Assembly (NCBI RefSeq): GCF_937129525.1
Contig: NZ_CAKZNK010000100.1
Span: 1-64,000, forward strand
DNA: 64,000 nucleotides
Reading direction: 5' to 3'
DNA from: an uncultured Chloroflexus sp.
Lineage (GTDB): Bacteria > Chloroflexota > Chloroflexia > Chloroflexales > Chloroflexaceae
The notes under the pieces are model-generated. The model did not search any database, was not told where the DNA came from, and saw only the letters and a program-made list of their open reading frames with translations. This document shows, in pieces, positions 367 through 46,313 of this stretch (its first letter is position 1; the number at the start of each line of letters is the position of its first letter). Position numbers and translations under genes: made by a program.

Positions 367-1689
367 ATGTCGCTGTTGCCGACCGCAACCGTTGCGACCA
401 TTGCCCGCTATGTGGGTCAGCAAGTAACCCTGGCTGGATGGGTCTATCACAAAACCGAGAAGGGCAAGCTGATTTTCATTTTGCTGCGTGATGGAAGCGG
501 CACAATTCAGTGTGTGACTTTTAAAAAGAATGTGAGTGAGGCCACGTTTGCTACCGCGCAGGCGTTGACTCAAGAGAGTTCATGCCGGATTACCGGTAGC
601 GTGCGCGCTGACGAACGCGCGCCAGGTGGCTATGAGCTTGATGTGACCGAGATCGAGTTGATCGGTTCGAGCCACGAGTATCCAATTACTCCCAAAGAGC
701 ATGGGGTTGAGTTTTTGATGGAGCATCGCCATCTCTGGGTGCGTTCGGCGAAGCAGCATGCCATTCTCCGAATTCGGGCGGAAGTGATCGCCGCTGCGCA
801 GGAGTGGCTGAATGAACAGGGGTTTGTGCGTTTCGATACCCCCATCCTCACCGCAACCGCCGCCGAAGGCACAACCAATTTGTTTGCCACTGACTATTTC
901 GATCTAGGCAAGGCATACCTTGCCCAGACCGGTCAGCTCTATGTGGAAGCGGGAATGATGGCGTTTGGACGGGTGTACTGCTTTGGGCCGACCTTCCGGG
1001 CCGAAAAGAGCAAAACGCGCCGTCACCTGACCGAGTTTTGGATGATTGAACCAGAGGTGGCGTTTGCCGATCACGAAGATAATATGCGGTTGCAAGAGCA
1101 GTTTGTCAGCGCCATTGTGGCTCGCGTGCTCGACCGGCGGCGTGAGGATCTTAAAGTGCTCGAACGCGATACGACACTGCTCGAACAGGTGATACCGCCG
1201 TTCCCGCGGATCACTTACGATCAGGCGCTTGAGTTGATTGCCAATCATCAGGGTGAAGTTGAGGGTGCCGATCCACTGCCGTGGGGCGAAGACTTTGGCG
1301 CGCCGCATGAGACATTGATAGCCTCAAAGTTTGATCGACCGGTCTTTGTCGAACGCTTCCCATCAGCGGTAAAGGCGTTTTACATGCAGCCCGATCCCAA
1401 TCGACCGGAAGTGGCCCTCTGCGCCGACCTGCTTGCGCCAGAAGGGTATGGTGAGATCATCGGCGGATCGCAACGCATCCACGACCTGACCTTGCTCGAA
1501 CAGCGGATTCGCGAGCATGGTCTGCGCCGCGAAGATTATGAGTGGTATCTTGATCTGCGTCGTTACGGAACGGTGCCGCACAGTGGCTTTGGCATGGGGA
1601 TCGAGCGAGTAGTAGCCTGGATTACCGGCACGCGCCACATTCGCGAAACGATCCCGTTCCCGCGCCAGTTGTATCGCATTTATCCGTAG
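367..1689 (+). CDS. asnS: Asparaginyl-tRNA synthetase
   Basis: This 440-residue protein should charge tRNA-Asn with asparagine in the cytoplasm. It has the class IIb layout: an N-terminal OB-fold anticodon-binding domain (about residues 15-105, with the [10 protein letters not shown] and [12 protein letters not shown] strands) followed by the catalytic domain. Motif 2 is seen in [21 protein letters not shown]-type sequence near residues 213-233, and motif 3 in [15 protein letters not shown] near residues 408-422. The length is close to typical bacterial AsnRS. AspRS is less likely because the large bacterial AspRS insertion is absent. An AAGGAG sequence lies seven bases before the ATG. A strong hairpin follows the gene. 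Confidence 0.93.
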
Positions 1690-36944: not shown

Positions 36945-38486
36945 TTATCCTTCAGGTTGCACTGCTGTCAGTTTGCGGCGCACAAAGGGTATCTTTTCCA
37001 GCACTTTAACCAGCGCTTCCTTCACCAGTGCCATATCATTGTTGGGCAGCGCGCGCAATACCAGCGCCAGACCAATGTACACAACAGCGCCTAATGGCAC
37101 GGCCAGGAAGAAAAATGGTGATGTCCGTAGCCACCAGATCGATCCTGCCATACCCAATCCGGCCAGGCCGGACAGCAAACCGGTGCGCCAGTTTTGAGCG
37201 CCAAATGTGCCCTTGGGTAAGGCCTTGATAGCCGCGATCAGAATGCCTAGCTCGGTAATCGTGTATGCCAGCGCCCCACCCAGCGCGCCGTTGCCAAAGG
37301 CGCGATCAGTCCACGGTACCAGGAAAAAGTCGAGTGGTAGCGTTGCGACCGTCGCCACAATCATAATCGTGTTGAGGATGGCAGTGCGCTCGGCGGCAAT
37401 CAGCAACTGGCTGAGCACCGTATTCAGGTAGGTACAGATCAGCACCAATCCCAGCACGGCGAGAACAGCGCCGGTTGGGCGAAAGGCATCGCCGTACAGA
37501 AGGAGCGTGATCGGTTCGGCTAGCGCCAGCAACCCCAGCCCAATCGGCATGCTGAGCACAACCATAATGTTGAAGATTGGCCGGGCCGCCTGTGAGAGGT
37601 AATCTTGCCCGGCAGCAAAGCGGCGCGTGAATGTCGGAAAGATGACAGTGCCAATCGCTACCGGGAAGAACATCAAGGTGCCAAACAGGTTTACGGCAGT
37701 GCCATACCAGCCCACAGCTTCGGTTGAGGCGAAGAGGGCGATAAACAACCGGTCGATTTGCTGATAAACCATCAGCGTTAATGCCGTCACCAGATACTGC
37801 TTTGAGTCAAGCAGCATACTTCGTGCCGCTGCCAGATCGAAACTCCAGCGCGGTCGATGCTGGCGGAAAAGGAAAAAAGCATCGCCTAAGAGTGCCACCA
37901 GGGCAGCCAGCACATTTGCCCAACCGATCCAGATGACATCGAATCCGGCGAAGAGCAGGCTCAGGCTCAACACTGTCAGCGCCAGCTTGCTGACAACCGT
38001 AACCAGCGAGACATAATGTACCTGTTCTAGCCCATTCAGCGCCGCAATTAAGCCGCCGCTAAGTGTTGCAAAGAGGGTCATCAGCCCGATAATCCAGATC
38101 AGGGCAATTTGCGTTGGATCGGCACTGCCGGCCAGGAGGTCGTAGCCAAAGACGACCAGGCAACTAATCACCCACAAGCCGATCCGAACAATGAGGCTGG
38201 TGCCGACCAATACACCGGTGCGGTGCGGTTCACGAGCAATCGCCTTGGTCAGGTGTGTGTCCATACCGAACGTGATCAACACGCCGGCAATCATCCAGAT
38301 CGACAACGCAATGGACAGTTGACCAATCGCGAGCGGCCCCAGGATGCGTGGCTGAAAGATGGCAACCAGAAAAGCCATTGCCCATGTGAGCAACTGAGCT
38401 GCCATCATCGCGCTTGCATTTCGGGCCAGCCGCGCCCCGCTAATGGGTGGCGGCGTTATGGGGTTGGGCGCTCCTTGGGCGCTCAC
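36945..38486 (-). CDS. Wzx-like polysaccharide flippase
   Basis: The 513-residue protein has 12-14 membrane segments and the polysaccharide-export layout of the MOP superfamily (for example ARNASAMMAAQLLTWAMAFL near the start and SKQYLVTALTLMVYQQIDRLFI in the middle). It should flip undecaprenyl-linked repeat units across the membrane. The start is a GTG at 38486 with AGAGGAG seven bases upstream; it overlaps the stop of the GT2 gene by four bases (GTGA). It is the last gene of the nine-gene operon starting at 46313. Confidence 0.85.
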   Translation of the reverse strand: MSAQGAPNPITPPPISGARLARNASAMMAAQLLTWAMAFLVAIFQPRILGPLAIGQLSIALSIWMIAGVLITFGMDTHLTKAIAREPHRTGVLVGTSLIVRIGLWVISCLVVFGYDLLAGSADPTQIALIWIIGLMTLFATLSGGLIAALNGLEQVHYVSLVTVVSKLALTVLSLSLLFAGFDVIWIGWANVLAALVALLGDAFFLFRQHRPRWSFDLAAARSMLLDSKQYLVTALTLMVYQQIDRLFIALFASTEAVGWYGTAVNLFGTLMFFPVAIGTVIFPTFTRRFAAGQDYLSQAARPIFNIMVVLSMPIGLGLLALAEPITLLLYGDAFRPTGAVLAVLGLVLICTYLNTVLSQLLIAAERTAILNTIMIVATVATLPLDFFLVPWTDRAFGNGALGGALAYTITELGILIAAIKALPKGTFGAQNWRTGLLSGLAGLGMAGSIWWLRTSPFFFLAVPLGAVVYIGLALVLRALPNNDMALVKEALVKVLEKIPFVRRKLTAVQPEG

Positions 38487-39460
38487 GGCGCTACTCCTCT
38501 CTGTGATGGGTCGGTCAGGCGAAATGGCGCAATATAACAACACAATTCGCGGTTAAGTTGATAACTCCAGCCTTTTTGCAAACCTACAAAGGGGTAATAC
38601 AGTTGATCTAATCCCAGCAATATCTTATCTAGGCGATGCCACTTGATCACACCCGAAGCAATCTGGCGCAATCCCTGGCTAAATAACCATTCACCCAACA
38701 ATACCAGGCCACCGAGGTCACCGCAGCGCAGGTATTTACCGGCAACCGCGCCGGCGCCAATGCCGTAAGCGCGAAAGCTGCGGCGAACGCCTTGCCAGTT
38801 CTGCCAGTGGTGATGATAGGCAATAGCCTGTGGGGTAAAGGCGATCCAGCCACCGCTTTTCAAGACCCGATAGCCTAGATCTCGCTCTTCCCACGATCCT
38901 AATGGCGCGCCAGCGCCAATCAGTTCATCAAATCCTCCCATCTGTTCGAAAGCGTTGCGCCGCGCGCCCATGTTATGGCCGTGACCGAAGGCAAGATTAA
39001 ACCGATTGTGGCGAAAAATACGACGCGAGCCATTGCACGTGCCCAAAACCAATTCATTGACCTTCATCTCTTGTGGCCCCGGGTATACTGCCCCGAAGGC
39101 CAGCCAGACCCGCTCGTCGCGCAATTCCGCGACTAACCCGCCGATCCAGCCAGGATCGAGCACACAGTCATCGTTGGTGAACAGAATGTAGGGCGCATGG
39201 CCCAGAGCAGCGCCGGCGTTGCGTGTGGCCGATATACCGCGTATCGGTTGCCGCAGATAACAGATCCGTTCGTCTTCTAACGCATGGTGACGAACACACT
39301 GTTCAGTGCGATCGTCTTCACTTTGGTCAAGCACCCAGATCGTAAAGTGAGGATACGTGTTCTGGCGGAGACTGCGAATCGTAGCGTCGATAGCAGCGCC
39401 GCGTCCATATGTTGAAATCACAACATCGACTGCCGACATATCCATACAGTTGCTGCCCAT
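38483..39460 (-). CDS. Family 2 glycosyltransferase
   Basis: The 325-residue protein has the GT-A signature DVVISTYGRGAAIDATIRSL, ISATRNAGAALG and the metal-binding pair in ILFTNDDCVLDPGWIGGL. A later ED motif is in SWEERDLGYRV. It should add a sugar to the growing lipid-linked unit at the cytoplasmic face. There are three possible ATG starts (39460, 39445, 39439) and none has a strong ribosome-binding site. It lies 89 bases after the receiver gene and is coupled to the flippase gene. Confidence 0.86.
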   Translation of the reverse strand: MGSNCMDMSAVDVVISTYGRGAAIDATIRSLRQNTYPHFTIWVLDQSEDDRTEQCVRHHALEDERICYLRQPIRGISATRNAGAALGHAPYILFTNDDCVLDPGWIGGLVAELRDERVWLAFGAVYPGPQEMKVNELVLGTCNGSRRIFRHNRFNLAFGHGHNMGARRNAFEQMGGFDELIGAGAPLGSWEERDLGYRVLKSGGWIAFTPQAIAYHHHWQNWQGVRRSFRAYGIGAGAVAGKYLRCGDLGGLVLLGEWLFSQGLRQIASGVIKWHRLDKILLGLDQLYYPFVGLQKGWSYQLNRELCCYIAPFRLTDPSQRGVAP

Positions 39461-39549: not shown

Positions 39550-39945
39550 TCACCTGGCAGCGAATTTTTGGTTGGGCGCGCGGCGCCGCAAGAGCCGATC
39601 AACTTCACAAATCAGATCGTCTGAGTCAACCGGCTTGGTCAGAAAAGCGTTGACGCCAACGCCGGCTGCTTTGACCTCGTCTTGCTCTTTGACACTGCCG
39701 GTTACCATAATGATTGGCAAGTCGGCATAGCGTTCATGCTCGCGAATTGCGCGAGCCAGTTCAATCCCGTCCATCCGCGGCATCGTAAGATCGGTGACAA
39801 CAAGAGCGACTTCCGCAGAGTTGAGTCGGCGCAACGCCTGCTCGCCATCAATGGCAGTAACCACTTTATAGCCGTGTTGTTCGAGCACGAACCCCATCAA
39901 CCGGTTGCTCGGTATATAGTCATCGACGATCATGATCGTGGTCAT
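39550..39945 (-). CDS. Single-domain CheY-like receiver
   Basis: The 131-residue protein has a complete receiver: acidic pair D8/D9 (MIVDDYIPSN), phosphoacceptor D52 (VVTDLTMPRMDG), T82 (IIMVTG) and K104 (FLTKPVD). There is no output domain and no histidine kinase nearby. It begins 14 bases after the RsbW-type kinase gene, inside the polysaccharide operon, so it may link an external sensor to the partner-switching circuit. Confidence 0.88.
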   Translation of the reverse strand: MTTIMIVDDYIPSNRLMGFVLEQHGYKVVTAIDGEQALRRLNSAEVALVVTDLTMPRMDGIELARAIREHERYADLPIIMVTGSVKEQDEVKAAGVGVNAFLTKPVDSDDLICEVDRLLRRRAPNQKFAAR

Positions 39946-39959
39946 GTTCAGAGTCTCCT

Positions 39960-40391
39960 TTAGCTTAAATGCTTGACCAGGTGCCAGCGATTTCCATCAG
40001 GAAGCGATGTATAGCTGACTTTATCCATCAAGTGGCGAATGAGAAACAAACCATAGCCGTGGATTTGGGCCTCGCTAAGGTTGGGTTGCGGCACCAGTTC
40101 TGGATCGAACGTCTCTCCCGTATCGTGCAATTCGATCTCGATGCGGGGTGGTTGTGGGTAGAGCGTTAAGGTGATATGAATGCGTCCTTCGCCATCGCGC
40201 CGATTCCGATAAGCGTGACTGACGATATTTGTGCAGACTTCATGCGCAGCCAACTGCACATTGTATATCAACGTTTCATTGTCTGCTCCTACCTGCCGAA
40301 GTAATTCGGCAATAGTTTCACTCAGCAGGTGCAGATAGGAATGGCGGGCCGGTAGATCCAGCCGGATCACTTCGCTGGGTTGCCTGCTCAC
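39960..40391 (-). CDS. RsbW/SpoIIAB-type serine kinase (anti-sigma-factor-like)
   Basis: The 143-residue HATPase-fold protein has the N box (AAHEVCTNIVSHAY, with E51 and N55), the G1 box (LHDTGETFDP, D90 and G92) and a G2 box (HGYGLFLIRHLMD). These are the features of kinases that phosphorylate a serine of a STAS partner. No sigma factor is encoded nearby, so its output partner is unknown. Its ATG overlaps the stop of the phosphatase gene by four bases. In the family these proteins act in the cytoplasm. Confidence 0.9.
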   Translation of the reverse strand: MSRQPSEVIRLDLPARHSYLHLLSETIAELLRQVGADNETLIYNVQLAAHEVCTNIVSHAYRNRRDGEGRIHITLTLYPQPPRIEIELHDTGETFDPELVPQPNLSEAQIHGYGLFLIRHLMDKVSYTSLPDGNRWHLVKHLS

Positions 40392-41929
40392 GGCTCTACT
40401 CCTTTGAGCACGATAAGCGTTTGATCATCATCTTGCGGATGGCCCGCGCTGAATCGATCCACTGCATCAAACAAACCATCGGCAATTTCGCGCGCTGAAA
40501 GCTTGGACAGTTCATCGACCGCGTTCAATAATCGTTCGATGCCAAATAATTCATCTTGTTCGTTACGGGCATCGCTGAAACCGTCGGTGGCAACGATCAA
40601 GAGATCACCTGCTGCCATCGCGAGCGAACGATTTTGAAAGTGATTGGTTGGCAGGATACCGATAGCCGTGTTATCGGCCAGCAATAATTCAGCTCGACCG
40701 TTGCGCGGTCGGTAAATGACCGGCGCGTGACCCGCATTGGCATATGTGATAGTCTGTTGCTCGACCTCGTATTGACCGACAAAGACAGTTGCAAAGACGC
40801 CGATCCGGGTAAAATCGTTGTAGAGATCTTCATTGGATTGGCGCATCACCAGTGCCGGTGTCGGCGATGGCATAAACTGCGCTTTGCTGTGCAAGGCAGT
40901 GCGTGTCATCGACATTAACAGCGCCGCCGAAACGCCTTTCCCACTCACGTCACCGATGGTAAAGATGAATGGATGGTTGGGCAGGTTGATGAAATCGAAA
41001 AAGTCGCCGCCAACCTGTAATGCCGGACGCGAATAGGCGAAGATCTCTAAACCGGTCACCTCTGGCAGGACGCGGGGAAGCAGATCGGTTTGCACTCGTC
41101 GAGCGAGATCCATTTCGCTGCGTAGACGCGCCTGTTCTACCATCTCCTGGTAGAGTAAGATCCGCTCGATCTGTGCGCTGGCCTGATCGGCGAGCGCTCG
41201 CCCAAGTTTCAGCTCAGGAGTGCCGAAACCTTCTGCCCGATCCATGATCCCGATACTGGCTACTACCATCCCCCGCACCCGGACTGGAACCACCAACAGG
41301 TTATGCACGCCGGGTGGCCGGCGCAGATCGCCATCATTTTCACTGAGTAAGAGCGGACGATCTTCTGTTTGTAGTTGCCAGAATAGTCGCCAGATCGTCT
41401 CGACGTTGAGCCTCGATTCTTCCGATTGCACAACGATCGGATCGCCACCGTTTGTTGACACGTAGGTTGCAAAGCCGGCTCGCCCTCTCAACATACGCTG
41501 CGCTTCATGGACAACAGCCGTCAACGTTTCACGCACTGTTACCAGATCGCGCATCGCCTGCGTTAATCGGTAGAGCGCGAGTTGTTGATCCTGACTGGCA
41601 ACCAGATCGGCGGTCATGCATTGCAACTCGTATTCGAGCTGCAACATGTAACCGATAAGCTCAGCTTCGGCTTTCAGATGTTGTTGCGCTGCTTTGTGCC
41701 GAATGCCGCTTAGACGAAGTTCGCCGACGACTTCGTTGTAACAGTAGATGGCTGCGCTGAGATCGGCTGGCAACAGTCGCTGTCCAGCCGGCCAGTAGGC
41801 AAGCGCCCGTCCCTGTTCAAAAACTCCAAATGCCTGCGCGCCTTGCGCCAGCCATGCTTCGGCTAATGCCTGAATGCGGTTGTATTGTGAGCTGAGCAAC
41901 GAAACAAGCATCATTGTGGTCTCAGGCAT
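40388..41929 (-). CDS. GAF-domain SpoIIE/RsbU-type PP2C phosphatase
   Basis: The 513-residue protein has a GAF-like sensor region (about residues 115-260) and a PP2C-type SpoIIE domain (about 285-510). All metal-binding motifs are seen: VGGDFFDF, TIGDVSGKGVSAALLM, IVATDGFSDARNEQDELFG and DDQTLIVL. It should remove phosphate from a STAS serine and is therefore expected to be active. No membrane segment is seen. It overlaps the upstream STAS gene by eight bases and the kinase gene by four, so kinase, phosphatase and substrate are made together. Confidence 0.9.
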   Translation of the reverse strand: MPETTMMLVSLLSSQYNRIQALAEAWLAQGAQAFGVFEQGRALAYWPAGQRLLPADLSAAIYCYNEVVGELRLSGIRHKAAQQHLKAEAELIGYMLQLEYELQCMTADLVASQDQQLALYRLTQAMRDLVTVRETLTAVVHEAQRMLRGRAGFATYVSTNGGDPIVVQSEESRLNVETIWRLFWQLQTEDRPLLLSENDGDLRRPPGVHNLLVVPVRVRGMVVASIGIMDRAEGFGTPELKLGRALADQASAQIERILLYQEMVEQARLRSEMDLARRVQTDLLPRVLPEVTGLEIFAYSRPALQVGGDFFDFINLPNHPFIFTIGDVSGKGVSAALLMSMTRTALHSKAQFMPSPTPALVMRQSNEDLYNDFTRIGVFATVFVGQYEVEQQTITYANAGHAPVIYRPRNGRAELLLADNTAIGILPTNHFQNRSLAMAAGDLLIVATDGFSDARNEQDELFGIERLLNAVDELSKLSAREIADGLFDAVDRFSAGHPQDDDQTLIVLKGVEP

Positions 41930-42260
41930 TCAAAACAGCAAGCGCATGCTCGCTATCAACAAAGATGTTGAACGCTTTATCGAGTCGGGTCAGTTCGAAA
42001 ATCATTAACACTGGTCGGCGCAAACCGCAGAGCGCAAATTCACCTTTCCCTTGCTGGCAGCGTTTCATCGCCGATACCAGCGTCGCCAACGCGGTTGAGT
42101 CGACGAAGGTGGTTTCGGTCAGATCGACTAAAACACGCGCGCCAGGGGTGGCAGTTGCCTGTTCAAGCCAGTGCTGGACGGGAGGCGCGGTATTCGCGTC
42201 GAACCGACCTTCAATCGCCAGCACTGCCACATTGCCGACTGTTCGCGGCTTGATTTCCAT
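41922..42260 (-). CDS. STAS-domain anti-sigma-factor antagonist-like protein
   Basis: The 112-residue protein is a single STAS domain. The phosphorylation motif reads TFVDSTALATLV with D54 and S55, as in RsbV/SpoIIAA. It should be the substrate of the kinase and phosphatase encoded directly downstream. GGAGG lies nine bases before the ATG, in a 62-bp gap after the pseudo-nucleotidyltransferase gene, so it can be translated independently within the operon. Confidence 0.9.
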   Translation of the reverse strand: MEIKPRTVGNVAVLAIEGRFDANTAPPVQHWLEQATATPGARVLVDLTETTFVDSTALATLVSAMKRCQQGKGEFALCGLRRPVLMIFELTRLDKAFNIFVDSEHALAVLNA

Positions 42261-42322: not shown

Positions 42323-44020
42323 TTACCTGGGTGGCGCAAGGTCGGCTTTTACGGCTACGCCGATCTCAGATGTCACTTTCGTTGCCTTCATCCGATGCCA
42401 CCAGGCCCGCGGTGTGCGCAACAGTATCTTCAGGTCATCTTGCCATGTATGCGTTGCACTATAGTATACATCGGCAACCACAATAGAATCGAGATCACCG
42501 GCGGCCTGTACGTACCATAAACCGGTTATGCCGGGTGGAACTTCATAGCGACGTTGCTGCCACGCTTCGTGCAACAGTTCGACTTCGTTGGGCGAGAGTG
42601 GTTTAATACCGACCAGGTGTAGATCGCCGTTGATGACATTCAAAAGTTCTGGTAACCGGTGAAATTCGCAGGCTTCGAGCCATGCCCCAAACCAGAGCGG
42701 GCGTCCATCGGCATGACGGGTGCGCCAGCGCCAGAGATTCAATGGGCGGAATGTGGTCTGCCCGTTGGCCAGCGTCACGCGCTCGCCAACGCGCGGTAGC
42801 CGAACGAGTGGCCGACCGCCGCTGCCGATCGCGGCCAGCAGTCCGGTGAACAAAAAGAGTGGGCTGAGCGCAATGAGGATGAGCAGGGCGCCGATCCGAT
42901 TCAAAACGCTGGTCAGCCGGTTTGTATTCACCGTTGCTGCCGAGACTCGTCCGATCAGGAACGGATCGACAATTGCGGTTTGTTCACCACTCTCTGGATC
43001 GATGATCATGCCTGGGTAAACAATACGCCGATCAACATTGACCAGTTGACCGATGTAGGTATCTGCCCAGACGGTGCTGGCTGTTACGGTAGCTTCGTCA
43101 TCGATCATGCAGTCGGCGCCGATTACCGTGCCCGGACCAAGCTCAACATCGCGCCCGATCCAGCAGTTGTCGCCAATGTAGAGGGGTGGCGCAATGCGCG
43201 CGCTGGGATGGATGGAGTCATTGCGTCCTACCCATACTCCGGGTGCGATCTGGCGACCCCGGATTGAAGGGTATCGCACGGTGGCACGCGGGCCATCGGT
43301 GACTGTCGGGTCGGCAGTCCGGTAGGCACTGTACAAAAAGACCTGCTGCGCTTCGTGGTAGCTGGCCAGTGTTGTCAAAGGATTCCAGTAGCCGCTAAAG
43401 GTAAAGTTGTGTATCGGTATGTGTTGTTCCAATAAGTGCGGTAACAGATCGGTGACAATCTGGCATCGCTTGCGCAGCGGAATTTGTGCGATCAAGCTCG
43501 GTTCAATGAGGTAGGCTCCGGTGAGAGTGACAACATTGCCATCGCTCTTAGCCGGCAACACGGCGCGCAGGGTTCCATCTTCAGCAATAGCAGCCTCCGG
43601 GTGGGCGTACTCGCGCGCCGGGTGAGTAATGACCGTGAGTGGCCCGCCATGAGCCTGATGGTGTGCCAGCGCCGTTTCAATTGGCAGGTCGATAATCGCG
43701 TTGCCCGGCCATACCAGACAGGTTTCATTTATCAGTGGCCCGGCCCAACGCAAGGCGCCGCCATCACCCCAGGCTTCTTGTAACGTGACATATTCAATAT
43801 CAACACCCCATCGCTTGCCACTGCCGAAGGCTGCCGTAATGGGGGCGCTCTGTTCGTGTAGCGCGATCAGAATGCGCTTGATACCGGCCCTGGCCAGCAG
43901 TTCGACCGCAACTGCCATGACCGGTCGATCAATGATCGGCAACAAGACATCCGGCAAGACATCGGTCAATGGCGGCAAATGACGCTCTTCAGCAGTCGCA
44001 ATCAGCAACGCAATGGTCAT
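42323..44020 (-). CDS. Fusion of degenerate nucleotidyltransferase, hexapeptide repeat and degenerate sugar transferase
   Basis: The 565-residue protein has three parts. Residues 1-230 resemble an NDP-sugar pyrophosphorylase (PIIDRPVMAVAVELL) but the GGxGTRL loop reads TAEERHL and the signature Lys is missing. Residues about 250-355 look like a left-handed beta-helix (ARIAPPLYIGDNCWIGRDVE). Residues about 365-540 resemble a bacterial sugar transferase with one membrane segment (LLILIALSPLFLFTGLL) and LPELLNVINGDLHLVGIKPL, but the catalytic Asp-Glu pair is His454-Arg455. It is probably not catalytic in either outer domain. Its ATG overlaps the stop of the STAS-fused glycosyltransferase gene. 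Confidence 0.82.
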   Translation of the reverse strand: MTIALLIATAEERHLPPLTDVLPDVLLPIIDRPVMAVAVELLARAGIKRILIALHEQSAPITAAFGSGKRWGVDIEYVTLQEAWGDGGALRWAGPLINETCLVWPGNAIIDLPIETALAHHQAHGGPLTVITHPAREYAHPEAAIAEDGTLRAVLPAKSDGNVVTLTGAYLIEPSLIAQIPLRKRCQIVTDLLPHLLEQHIPIHNFTFSGYWNPLTTLASYHEAQQVFLYSAYRTADPTVTDGPRATVRYPSIRGRQIAPGVWVGRNDSIHPSARIAPPLYIGDNCWIGRDVELGPGTVIGADCMIDDEATVTASTVWADTYIGQLVNVDRRIVYPGMIIDPESGEQTAIVDPFLIGRVSAATVNTNRLTSVLNRIGALLILIALSPLFLFTGLLAAIGSGGRPLVRLPRVGERVTLANGQTTFRPLNLWRWRTRHADGRPLWFGAWLEACEFHRLPELLNVINGDLHLVGIKPLSPNEVELLHEAWQQRRYEVPPGITGLWYVQAAGDLDSIVVADVYYSATHTWQDDLKILLRTPRAWWHRMKATKVTSEIGVAVKADLAPPR

Positions 44021-45561
44021 CGAGTTAAGCCCCCTTCAGTTGCAATCGGAGCTGGCTTTGTTGGCGTAGCAGTCGCCACCGATACATCGGGAAAGATCGC
44101 CAATACCTGGTCGAGGCGTACCAGTTGGAGGGTGCGCAAGACATCGTGTGCGCAACCGGCCAGACGTAGCGCGCTCCCCTGCTCACGGGCCAACCGGTCG
44201 AGTTTTACCAGTGCAGCCATTCCGGCGCTGGCCATAAATGTTGTCTGGCTACAATCGATGACGACCTGTTCACCTCTGGCGAGCGCAGCGCCAGTCTGCT
44301 CTAGCAGTGCTGGCGCTGTAGTGGCGTCGAACACTCGCGGCGCCGGGATGATCGTCCAGCCGGAAAGTGTTGGCGCGGGTTGGATTGGCGCTGGTTGTTG
44401 TTGACGTTCCATCCATTCGGCAATTGCCGCTAGATCGGAAAATTGCTCAAAAAAGCGATTGAGTTTGAGCAAATCAAGGATCTGCCGCACAGGCTCTTGC
44501 ACATTGAGCAAGAAGAGGTCGCCTCCCTTTGTGCGGGCGCGTTTGGCCAGTGCGACTAATGCGCCCAGGGCCGAGCTATCGAGAAACCGGGTTGCGCTTA
44601 GATCAAGGATCAAAAAAGGGTGTGCTTCCAACAATTGATTGGCTCGAACGGTGAATGGTTCCAGGTTAGCGACTTCGAGCCGTGGCTCAACGGTCAGCAC
44701 AGGCCATGGCAATGATGCTGCGGGAGGTTCCGGCACAGCGGGAGCTTCCGGCGCAGCCGATGGTGCGGCAGGAGCAGTGGGAATAATGGTGAGCGCTCTT
44801 CCCCGCTGCATTGCCCACCATTGTCGGGCAAAGAAGTACCCGAAGTAGATGAAATCGTGAACGTACCGTTTCCACAATCGGCGCGGCTCTTGCGCTAACC
44901 GGTATACCCATTCCAGGCCGACTCGCTGCATCCACACCGGCGCCCGTTTGGTAACTCCCACGATCATATCAAATGTGCCACCGACCCCAATCGCAATCGG
45001 CACGCGCAATTCATGCGCGTACATTCTGATCCACTTCTCTTGTTTGGGGTTGCCAAACGCCACCAGCAGAATGTCTGGCCGGGCTGCTTTGACGGTTTCA
45101 ACGATTGAGCGATCCATATCCAGCACCGATCCGGGTGGCGGCGACAACACGCCGGCCACGCGCAAACCGGGATAACGTTCTTGCAGAATAGCCGCAGCTT
45201 TGGCGGCGACACCTTCGCGCGCGCCCAGGAAGAAAATTGAATACCCTCGTTGGGCAGCGCGCTCGGCCAGCGCCGGTACCATGTCGGCGCCGGTTACCCG
45301 GCCAGGCAGTGGTCCGCCGAGCAGGCGTGAGGCCCAGACGAGCGGCATGCCGTCGGCTGTCGCCATATCGGCTTCTTGCAGGATGCGTCGCAGTTCGGGA
45401 TCATGCAGCGCATTGACAACGAAATCGGCATTAACAGTGGCAATCTGATGTAGACGACCGGTAGCTCGCCCCACTGCAATAAACTCGTCGCAGCGATCAA
45501 GCGCTTCGGCCATCGTCAGGTTGTCAACCGGCACACCGAGAATGACAAGCAGTTTGCGCAT
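44017..45561 (-). CDS. WecG/TagA/CpsF (GT26) glycosyltransferase fused to two STAS domains
   Basis: Residues 1-245 form a GT26 enzyme: ATVNADFVVNALHDPEL, ATADGMPLVWASRLLG, GRVTGADMVPAL, VAFGNPKQEKWI and GVGGTFDMIVGVTKRAP. It should add a second sugar to a lipid-linked primer. After a Pro/Ala-rich linker, residues about 288-388 form a STAS domain with RFLDSSALGALV (D328, S329), and residues about 402-495 a second one with TFMASAGMAALV (Ala in place of the Asp, S445). The family normally ends near residue 245-260. STAS domains are the substrates of RsbW-type kinases, and one such kinase is encoded four genes downstream. Confidence 0.88.
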   Translation of the reverse strand: MRKLLVILGVPVDNLTMAEALDRCDEFIAVGRATGRLHQIATVNADFVVNALHDPELRRILQEADMATADGMPLVWASRLLGGPLPGRVTGADMVPALAERAAQRGYSIFFLGAREGVAAKAAAILQERYPGLRVAGVLSPPPGSVLDMDRSIVETVKAARPDILLVAFGNPKQEKWIRMYAHELRVPIAIGVGGTFDMIVGVTKRAPVWMQRVGLEWVYRLAQEPRRLWKRYVHDFIYFGYFFARQWWAMQRGRALTIIPTAPAAPSAAPEAPAVPEPPAASLPWPVLTVEPRLEVANLEPFTVRANQLLEAHPFLILDLSATRFLDSSALGALVALAKRARTKGGDLFLLNVQEPVRQILDLLKLNRFFEQFSDLAAIAEWMERQQQPAPIQPAPTLSGWTIIPAPRVFDATTAPALLEQTGAALARGEQVVIDCSQTTFMASAGMAALVKLDRLAREQGSALRLAGCAHDVLRTLQLVRLDQVLAIFPDVSVATATPTKPAPIATEGGLTR

Positions 45562-45572
45562 GGTTGCTACCC

Positions 45573-46313
45573 TTAATATGCCCCACGCCCCAACAACACC
45601 GCCGGAATCGTGCGCAACAGGATTTCGATGTCTTTCCAGATGCTCTGCTCGGCGATATATTGCAAATCAAGTTCGACCCAGCGCTTGAAGTCGAGATCGC
45701 TTCGCCCTGAGACCTGCTGTAATCCGGTAATCCCTGGAATTGCGTGCAGGCGACCCAGTTGCTCGTAGGTATAGCGGGCTACCTCACTCGGCAGGGCCGG
45801 ACGGGGCCCAACCAGGCTCATCTCACCTTTCAATACGTTAAAGAGTTGGGGCAATTCGTCAATGCTCAGCTTGCGAATCACGCGGCCTACTCGCGTCACT
45901 CTTGGATCGTGCTTCATTTTAAAGACAGGACCGTCAGCTTCGTTTTTGGTCTGCAATTCGCGCTGTCGCTGTTCCGCATCAACGTACATCGAACGAAACT
46001 TGTAGCAATAGAAATGTTCACCGTCTTTGCCGACGCGCACTTGCTTGAAAATCACCGGTCCCGGCGACTCAAGCTTGATGAGAATTGCCGTGATCAGCAT
46101 AATCGGCGAAGTCAGCACAATCGCCATTGAGGCGACGGTAACATCTAATACCCGCTTGAGACGAGCGAGCAACTTGGTGCGGATAACCCATAGTGAGAGG
46201 GTGAATCGCAGGCGCTGGTTTGCGCGGGTGCGCTGAAAGCGGCGCTCGGCAAAAATTTCCAGCATGCGTCGGCTCTTTTCGTCAAGTGGTGATAATTCTG
46301 GTGCGCTCATCAT
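45573..46313 (-). CDS. Bacterial sugar transferase (priming phosphoglycosyltransferase)
   Basis: The 246-residue protein has one membrane (reentrant) segment (DVTVASMAIVLTSPIMLITA), then YKFRSMYVDAEQR and the catalytic Asp152-Glu153 in LSIDELPQLFNVLKGEMSLVGPRP. It should move a sugar-1-phosphate to undecaprenyl phosphate, starting repeat-unit synthesis. AGGAGG lies seven bases before the first of two ATGs, at 46313. It is the first gene of the operon and is followed by the GT26-STAS gene after 11 bases. Confidence 0.92.
   Translation of the reverse strand: MMSAPELSPLDEKSRRMLEIFAERRFQRTRANQRLRFTLSLWVIRTKLLARLKRVLDVTVASMAIVLTSPIMLITAILIKLESPGPVIFKQVRVGKDGEHFYCYKFRSMYVDAEQRQRELQTKNEADGPVFKMKHDPRVTRVGRVIRKLSIDELPQLFNVLKGEMSLVGPRPALPSEVARYTYEQLGRLHAIPGITGLQQVSGRSDLDFKRWVELDLQYIAEQSIWKDIEILLRTIPAVLLGRGAY

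Follow-up and report, generated by a model that had tools for sequence, protein, structure and literature searches.

A WecG/TagA-type glycosyltransferase carrying two STAS domains, encoded with a predicted partner-switching module in Chloroflexota

The window analysed here is a stretch of 64,000 nucleotides from an uncultured Chloroflexus sp. (positions 1 to 64,000 of the forward strand of contig NZ_CAKZNK010000100.1, assembly GCF_937129525.1). It encodes a protein of 514 amino acids in which a WecG/TagA-type glycosyltransferase is followed by two STAS domains (STAS1 and STAS2), and whose gene lies in one operon with a serine phosphatase, a single-domain STAS protein and an RsbW-like kinase. 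We consider it somewhat probable that a partner-switching module has this fusion as its effector and would control an early step in the making of cell-surface polysaccharide post-translationally, by acting directly on the WecG enzyme, probably through the membrane appendage next to STAS1. This suggests that these green filamentous bacteria may switch the synthesis of their sugar coat directly at this enzyme. A first-pass annotation of the DNA had noticed the fusion and knew of no described function for it; since the same operon encodes kinase, phosphatase, single STAS and receiver, a concrete and testable partner-switch hypothesis can now be put in that place.

The composition of the protein, as it was first annotated, is borne out by both Pfam and structural superpositions. 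The Glyco_tran_WecG domain is found at residues 64-233 (E 2.4e-65), and two STAS stretches pass, with best stretches at 289-378 (STAS) and 410-484 (STAS_2). The fusion scores 219.9 bits with the family profile PF03808 (curated cut-off 27.4) and 160.5 with TIGR00696 (cut-off 69), and it stays below the cut-off of the TarA equivalog (137 vs 350 bits). The STAS profiles PF01740 (106 bits vs 22.6) and TIGR00377 (82.4 vs 53.45) are passed as well. The protein thus belongs to the WecG/TagA/CpsF family; the transfer of N-acetylmannosamine or its uronic acid, ManNAc(A), to an undecaprenyl-linked sugar is a putative function, as the substrate cannot be read from the sequence. An AlphaFold2 model of the fusion, built from a 35-row alignment, has a mean predicted local distance difference test (pLDDT) of 90.4 and a predicted template modelling score (pTM) of 0.87. 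In this model, TarA/TagA can be superposed on residues 3-204 (Z about 28), and TM1442, TM1081, RsbV and SpoIIAA on STAS2 (391-503; Z 13-17), while STAS1 is supported by Pfam, by the modelled order of strands and helices and by phmmer matches to TM1442 and SpoIIAA. The enzyme core had been thought to end near residue 245; the model moves this limit to about 256, because the helix 226-256 occupies the place of the C-terminal membrane appendage of TagA. A low-confidence linker (about 257-286) then leads to STAS1.

The possibility that a frame or assembly error joins two genes, which would have undone the annotation, is ruled out, since the fusion recurs in many species, including in genomes assembled as a single contig. 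The homologue scan comprised 42 loci, of which L001-L030 were tabulated; these count as Chloroflexota because of their title or their identity (51-81%). A WecG enzyme with two STAS domains is present in 28 of these 30 loci; one of the two exceptions is cut before the first STAS (L027), and the other has one STAS and lies at a contig end (L026). A sample of 400 Chloroflexota genomes yields at least 16 with the fusion, and three of these consist of a single contig (G107, G123 and G225). Compared with three Chloroflexus-like relatives, the protein of the window is 96% identical in its WecG part and 71-77% identical in its STAS parts. The ratio of nonsynonymous to synonymous substitution rates (dN/dS) is about 0.07-0.13 for STAS1 and STAS2 when the window is compared to L001-L003, where dS could be estimated. 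One of the loci, L029, belongs to a metagenome-assembled genome titled Gracilibacteria, which carries the whole Chloroflexota-type operon and is probably misbinned.

As judged from the alignment, along which the correspondence was counted by hand, the catalytic residues of TagA are kept in the fusion: T37, D65, R83, D191, R214 and R221 of TagA align with T42, D70, R88, D198, R221 and R228. All 39 aligned rows share T42, D70, R88, R221, R228 and also R232, while 38 of them have D198. According to the study of TagA, the enzyme is active only as a full-length protein with its C-terminal appendage, which anchors it to the membrane and was modelled to carry arginines into the active site; its authors propose that cytoplasmic dimers are inactive and membrane-bound monomers active (PMC6493773). 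In the fusion, the STAS pair starts just past the region equivalent to this appendage.

The motifs D328-S329 in STAS1 and A444-S445 in STAS2 are present as first described, and the proposed check on the conservation of the two serines was run. Among the 28 Chloroflexota rows, STAS1 has Asp-Ser in all, whereas the Asp of STAS2 is lost in all, the motif being AS in 16, SS in 7, TS in 4 and SQ in one. The idea of one switchable and one altered domain is therefore supported as a pattern, yet the alteration is partial: the serine of STAS2 is kept in 27 of the 28 rows. That STAS1 was copied recently from the single STAS protein is unlikely, since group profiles score STAS1, STAS2 and the single STAS clearly apart (own-group means of 137-184 bits, cross-group means of 38-68).

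The operon belongs to a run of minus-strand genes, in the order phosphoglycosyl transferase (PGT), WecG:STAS:STAS, nucleotidyltransferase:beta-helix:PGT, STAS, GAF:SpoIIE, HATPase_c_2, receiver, GT2 and flippase (Table 1); several neighbouring genes overlap by 4 to 8 bases, and the stop of the fusion gene is overlapped by 4 bases by the start of the next gene. A set of the RsbU/V/W type (PP2C phosphatase, STAS protein and HATPase_c_2 kinase) is thus co-encoded with intact motifs. All 20 aligned kinases have the N-box Glu and Asn, and 18 of them have the DxG motif (L017 lacks it and L029 is broken off); the GDxxGKG motif of the phosphatase is found in 18 of 18, and the Asp-Ser of the single STAS protein in 21 of 22 rows. 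The kinase matches B. subtilis RsbW (6m36) with an E value of 3e-9, and the STAS resembles RsbV of the RsbV/RsbW crystal (template modelling score about 0.85, by target). This gene order is conserved: when at least 4 kb is available downstream of the fusion (23 of the 30 tabulated loci), the kinase is present in 19 loci, the phosphatase in 17, the single STAS in 17, the receiver in 16 and the nucleotidyltransferase:PGT protein in 20, and the stand-alone PGT lies upstream in 22 of the 26 loci that have at least 1 kb there.

Table 1. Features of the operon in the window and segments of the fusion protein
Feature	Position	Strand	Remarks
WecG/TagA-type glycosyltransferase fused to two STAS domains	44017..45561	(-)	514 aa (amino acids); open reading frame, Pfam, AlphaFold2 model
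Fusion, enzyme and membrane appendage	aa 1-256		
Fusion, STAS1	aa 286-385		D328-S329
Fusion, STAS2	aa ~391-503		A444-S445
Monotopic phosphoglycosyl transferase (Bac_transf)	45573..46313	(-)	246 aa; Asp-Glu dyad kept, DE in 24/24 aligned homologues
Nucleotidyltransferase : left-handed beta-helix : Bac_transf fusion	42323..44020	(-)	565 aa; probable double pseudoenzyme
Single-domain STAS protein, RsbV-like	41922..42260	(-)	Asp-Ser kept
GAF : SpoIIE-type PP2C serine phosphatase, RsbU-like	40388..41929	(-)	catalytic motifs kept
HATPase_c_2 kinase, RsbW-like	39960..40391	(-)	top match among PDB sequences: RsbW of B. subtilis (6m36)
Stand-alone response-regulator receiver	39550..39945	(-)	
GT2 glycosyltransferase	38483..39460	(-)	same directon; also in L001, L002
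Wzx-type flippase	36945..38543	(-)	same directon; also in L001, L002

In the third protein of the operon, a fold of the nucleotidyltransferase type is joined to a beta-helix and a PGT domain. An Asp-Glu dyad is catalytic in monotopic PGT, and a GGxGTR-type motif marks sugar nucleotidyltransferase activity. In 24 of 24 aligned homologues of this protein the GGxGTR-type motif is absent and the Glu of the dyad is replaced, and the Asp is replaced in 21 (it is kept in L015, L017 and L020), unlike in the stand-alone PGT, which retains both residues throughout. The protein is therefore a probable double pseudoenzyme, going by these motifs, and its conservation makes it a candidate scaffold or sensor. 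In its AlphaFold2 model (mean pLDDT 72.2, pTM 0.56) the nucleotidyltransferase part is good, and the beta-helix and parts of the PGT domain are poor; the best 50 Foldseek matches listed are all nucleotidyltransferases.

These elements could work together as follows. The phosphorylation state of Ser329 in STAS1, and that of the serine of the single STAS protein, would depend on the GAF:SpoIIE phosphatase and the RsbW-like kinase. The kinase could bind STAS1 when the latter is unphosphorylated and, sitting beside the helix 226-256, the counterpart of the TagA appendage, it would hold the transferase off, until the single STAS protein, once dephosphorylated, draws the kinase away by competition and so releases the enzyme. 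Either the binding of the kinase or the phosphorylation of S329 may gate the docking of the TagA-type C-terminal appendage to the membrane. The proposal is favoured by the conserved operon, by the invariant Asp-Ser of STAS1, by the intact motifs of kinase and phosphatase, by the likeness of STAS and kinase to RsbV and RsbW, by the kinase gene next to the fusion in Viridilinea, by the lack of a SigB/F/G sigma factor above the cut-off in 21 genomes and by the dependence of TagA on its appendage. While the architecture, the catalytic residues, their conservation, the operon and the intact kinase and phosphatase motifs are shown, direct contact between kinase and STAS1, phosphorylation of S329 and an effect on WecG activity are what we infer; the polarity of the control, like the roles that we assign to STAS2 and to the pseudoenzyme, is a guess. 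STAS2, which has lost its Asp and kept its Ser, might be the half of the pair that serves docking or dimerisation and takes up phosphate poorly, and the dead nucleotidyltransferase:PGT protein might be a scaffold, or a sensor of nucleotide sugars, that links the active PGT to the WecG enzyme. The full picture of a switch embedded in an enzyme, in which a module of the type that controls sigma factors is wired onto an early glycosyltransferase, with the double pseudoenzyme as scaffold or nucleotide-sugar sensor and phosphorylation gating membrane docking, is more tentative than the effector role itself, and we would put it a little below an even chance.

The homologues provide evidence both for and against the fusion being the effector of the module. 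We searched 24 genomes (23 listed genomes of the family of the window, G000 included, and G295). All 16 that have the fusion hold close homologues of the kinase (E <= 4e-42), of the phosphatase (E <= 2e-167) and of the pseudoenzyme (E <= 2e-132), which speaks for the proposal. Of the eight genomes with no detected fusion, five have a close kinase (G075, G083, G187, G218 and G341) and one has the pseudoenzyme (G341, whose contig stops at the start of the pseudoenzyme gene, so that a fusion upstream could not be seen). Several observations weigh against it. In G083, G187, G218 and G075 the module is present with no fusion detected, and the module therefore has other outputs, as far as gene content can tell. 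Among the 23 loci with at least 4 kb downstream, the four that have no kinase nearby are three Chloroploca loci (L006, L009 and L028) and L023. The fusions of Chloroploca are separate from the module: in G211, the PGT, the pseudoenzyme and the module form one cluster on a contig other than that of the fusion, and in G253 they are spread over two contigs. In the metagenome-assembled genomes of L023 and L025, which have the fusion, the sole kinase is distant (37-38% identity) and located elsewhere, between two STAS genes; in L110 it lies near an O-antigen-ligase-type gene. Outside Chloroflexota, four Verrucomicrobial rows have Asp-Ser in both STAS domains. In the stretches fetched around these fusions no gene of the module was detected, though the genomes encode HATPase_c_2 proteins elsewhere. 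The Acidobacterial WecG homologues (L034-L037, four rows) have a single STAS in which the Ser is replaced by Pro; judging from these sequences, a fused STAS therefore need not be a phospho-switch. The module might also target a sigma factor of a group other than SigB/F/G.

Part of this evidence would fit a STAS pair that serves constitutively for assembly or dimerisation and places the WecG enzyme in a complex with the PGT and the pseudoenzyme, the serine being kept only as a helix cap and the kinase acting on the single STAS protein alone. The Acidobacterial fusions that lack the Ser, the loss of the Asp of STAS2 in Chloroflexota and the distance of some fusions from the module agree with it, as does the fact that fusion and pseudoenzyme occur together in 16 of 16 genomes vs one of the eight with no detected fusion, G341. 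However, the Asp-Ser of STAS1 is invariant (28 of 28) although STAS2 lost its Asp, and Viridilinea (L011, L012 and L088) keeps the kinase gene directly after the fusion with no second STAS protein nearby: apart from the STAS pair of the fusion, no STAS domain was detected in that stretch, and in G361 the single STAS, the phosphatase and the receiver lie together on another contig. We find this explanation unlikely, if worth keeping in mind. Information could also flow in the reverse direction, the fusion being a trigger enzyme whose STAS1 titrates the kinase according to the state or location of the enzyme and so reports polysaccharide synthesis to a module that has another output protein. STAS proteins classically act through kinase binding, and the four genomes that have the module and no detected fusion are in favour of such an output. 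Against this reading, a search of 21 genomes found none with a sigma factor of the SigB/F/G type above the curated cut-off (TIGR02980), which one of 14 control genomes exceeds; this led us to reject Sigma-B control, for that sigma group only; and the conserved seven-gene block encodes no DNA-binding protein, the receiver being a lone one. The reverse flow is, in our opinion, improbable. That the STAS domains bind a ligand (a nucleotide, a lipid or the acyl carrier protein) with no relation to the kinase is very improbable: STAS folds are also found in transporters and in YchM bound to acyl carrier protein (3ny7), but here kinase and phosphatase are conserved at the same location.

We return to the partner switch acting on the fused enzyme, and to how it compares with known systems. 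The fusion shares with TagA/TarA (GT26, WecB/TagA/CpsF family; 7mpk, 5wb4) the fold, the catalytic residues and the C-terminal appendage region, but TagA ends after the appendage, whereas the fusion continues with two STAS domains. As in RsbU-RsbV-RsbW and SpoIIE-SpoIIAA-SpoIIAB, a phosphatase, an Asp-Ser STAS protein and a HATPase kinase are encoded in one operon; unlike in these systems, no SigB/F/G sigma factor exceeds the cut-off in the genomes searched, and two extra STAS domains are part of a glycosyltransferase. The nucleotidyltransferase and beta-helix part of the pseudoenzyme has the same fold as GMPPA/GMPPB (7d72, 7d74), of which GMPPA is a dead regulatory homologue, and carries a Bac_transf domain in addition. 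Partner switches that act on an enzyme are already known, as is a glycosyltransferase with an N-terminal STAS. In SiaABCD of Pseudomonas aeruginosa, a PP2C phosphatase and a kinase switch a STAS-like protein, and the output enzyme is a diguanylate cyclase (PMC7647112, PMC8457831); an enzyme output is common to both, but SiaC is described there as a separate protein with a threonine site, while here the STAS is covalently linked to a different kind of enzyme. The all4160 protein of Anabaena, mentioned in a paper that cites work on the heterocyst envelope polysaccharide (PMC8256260), is likewise a STAS-glycosyltransferase fusion, with the STAS at the N-terminus. The partner-switch proteins SypA/SypE and HmpUVW govern surface polysaccharide, biofilm or hormogonium development (PMC4517449, PMC8256260), with a STAS that is a separate protein rather than fused to an enzyme. 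We found no description of a WecG-type STAS fusion, or of this operon, in the open-licence literature searched.

The covalent linkage matters since it would turn the question of how a partner switch acts on polysaccharide production into an assay with purified proteins, a question left open for SypA, whose mechanism was described as "as-yet unknown" (PMC4517449). If our proposal is true, the TagA family, in which activity is already known to depend on the C-terminal membrane appendage, would also gain a natural regulator.

Last, some related loci deserve mention. G075:C27 (L080), from a relative of the same genus, keeps the module with neither fusion nor pseudoenzyme detected; its phosphatase match is split in two frames, by decay or by a sequencing error. 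A plain WecG gene, with a carboxyltransferase, one or more RsbW-like kinases and a STAS gene, is found in five of seven such regions (L094, which is G000:C143, and L097-L100; not L101 and L102). We did not retain this second WecG locus, L094, as an independent link between WecG and the kinase, because it may be plain conservation of gene order. Further STAS-kinase modules, some with SpoIIE, are present in L090, L091, L092, L093, L110 and L111, where no STAS fusion was seen; several of them adjoin glycosyltransferase, flippase or O-antigen-ligase-type genes.

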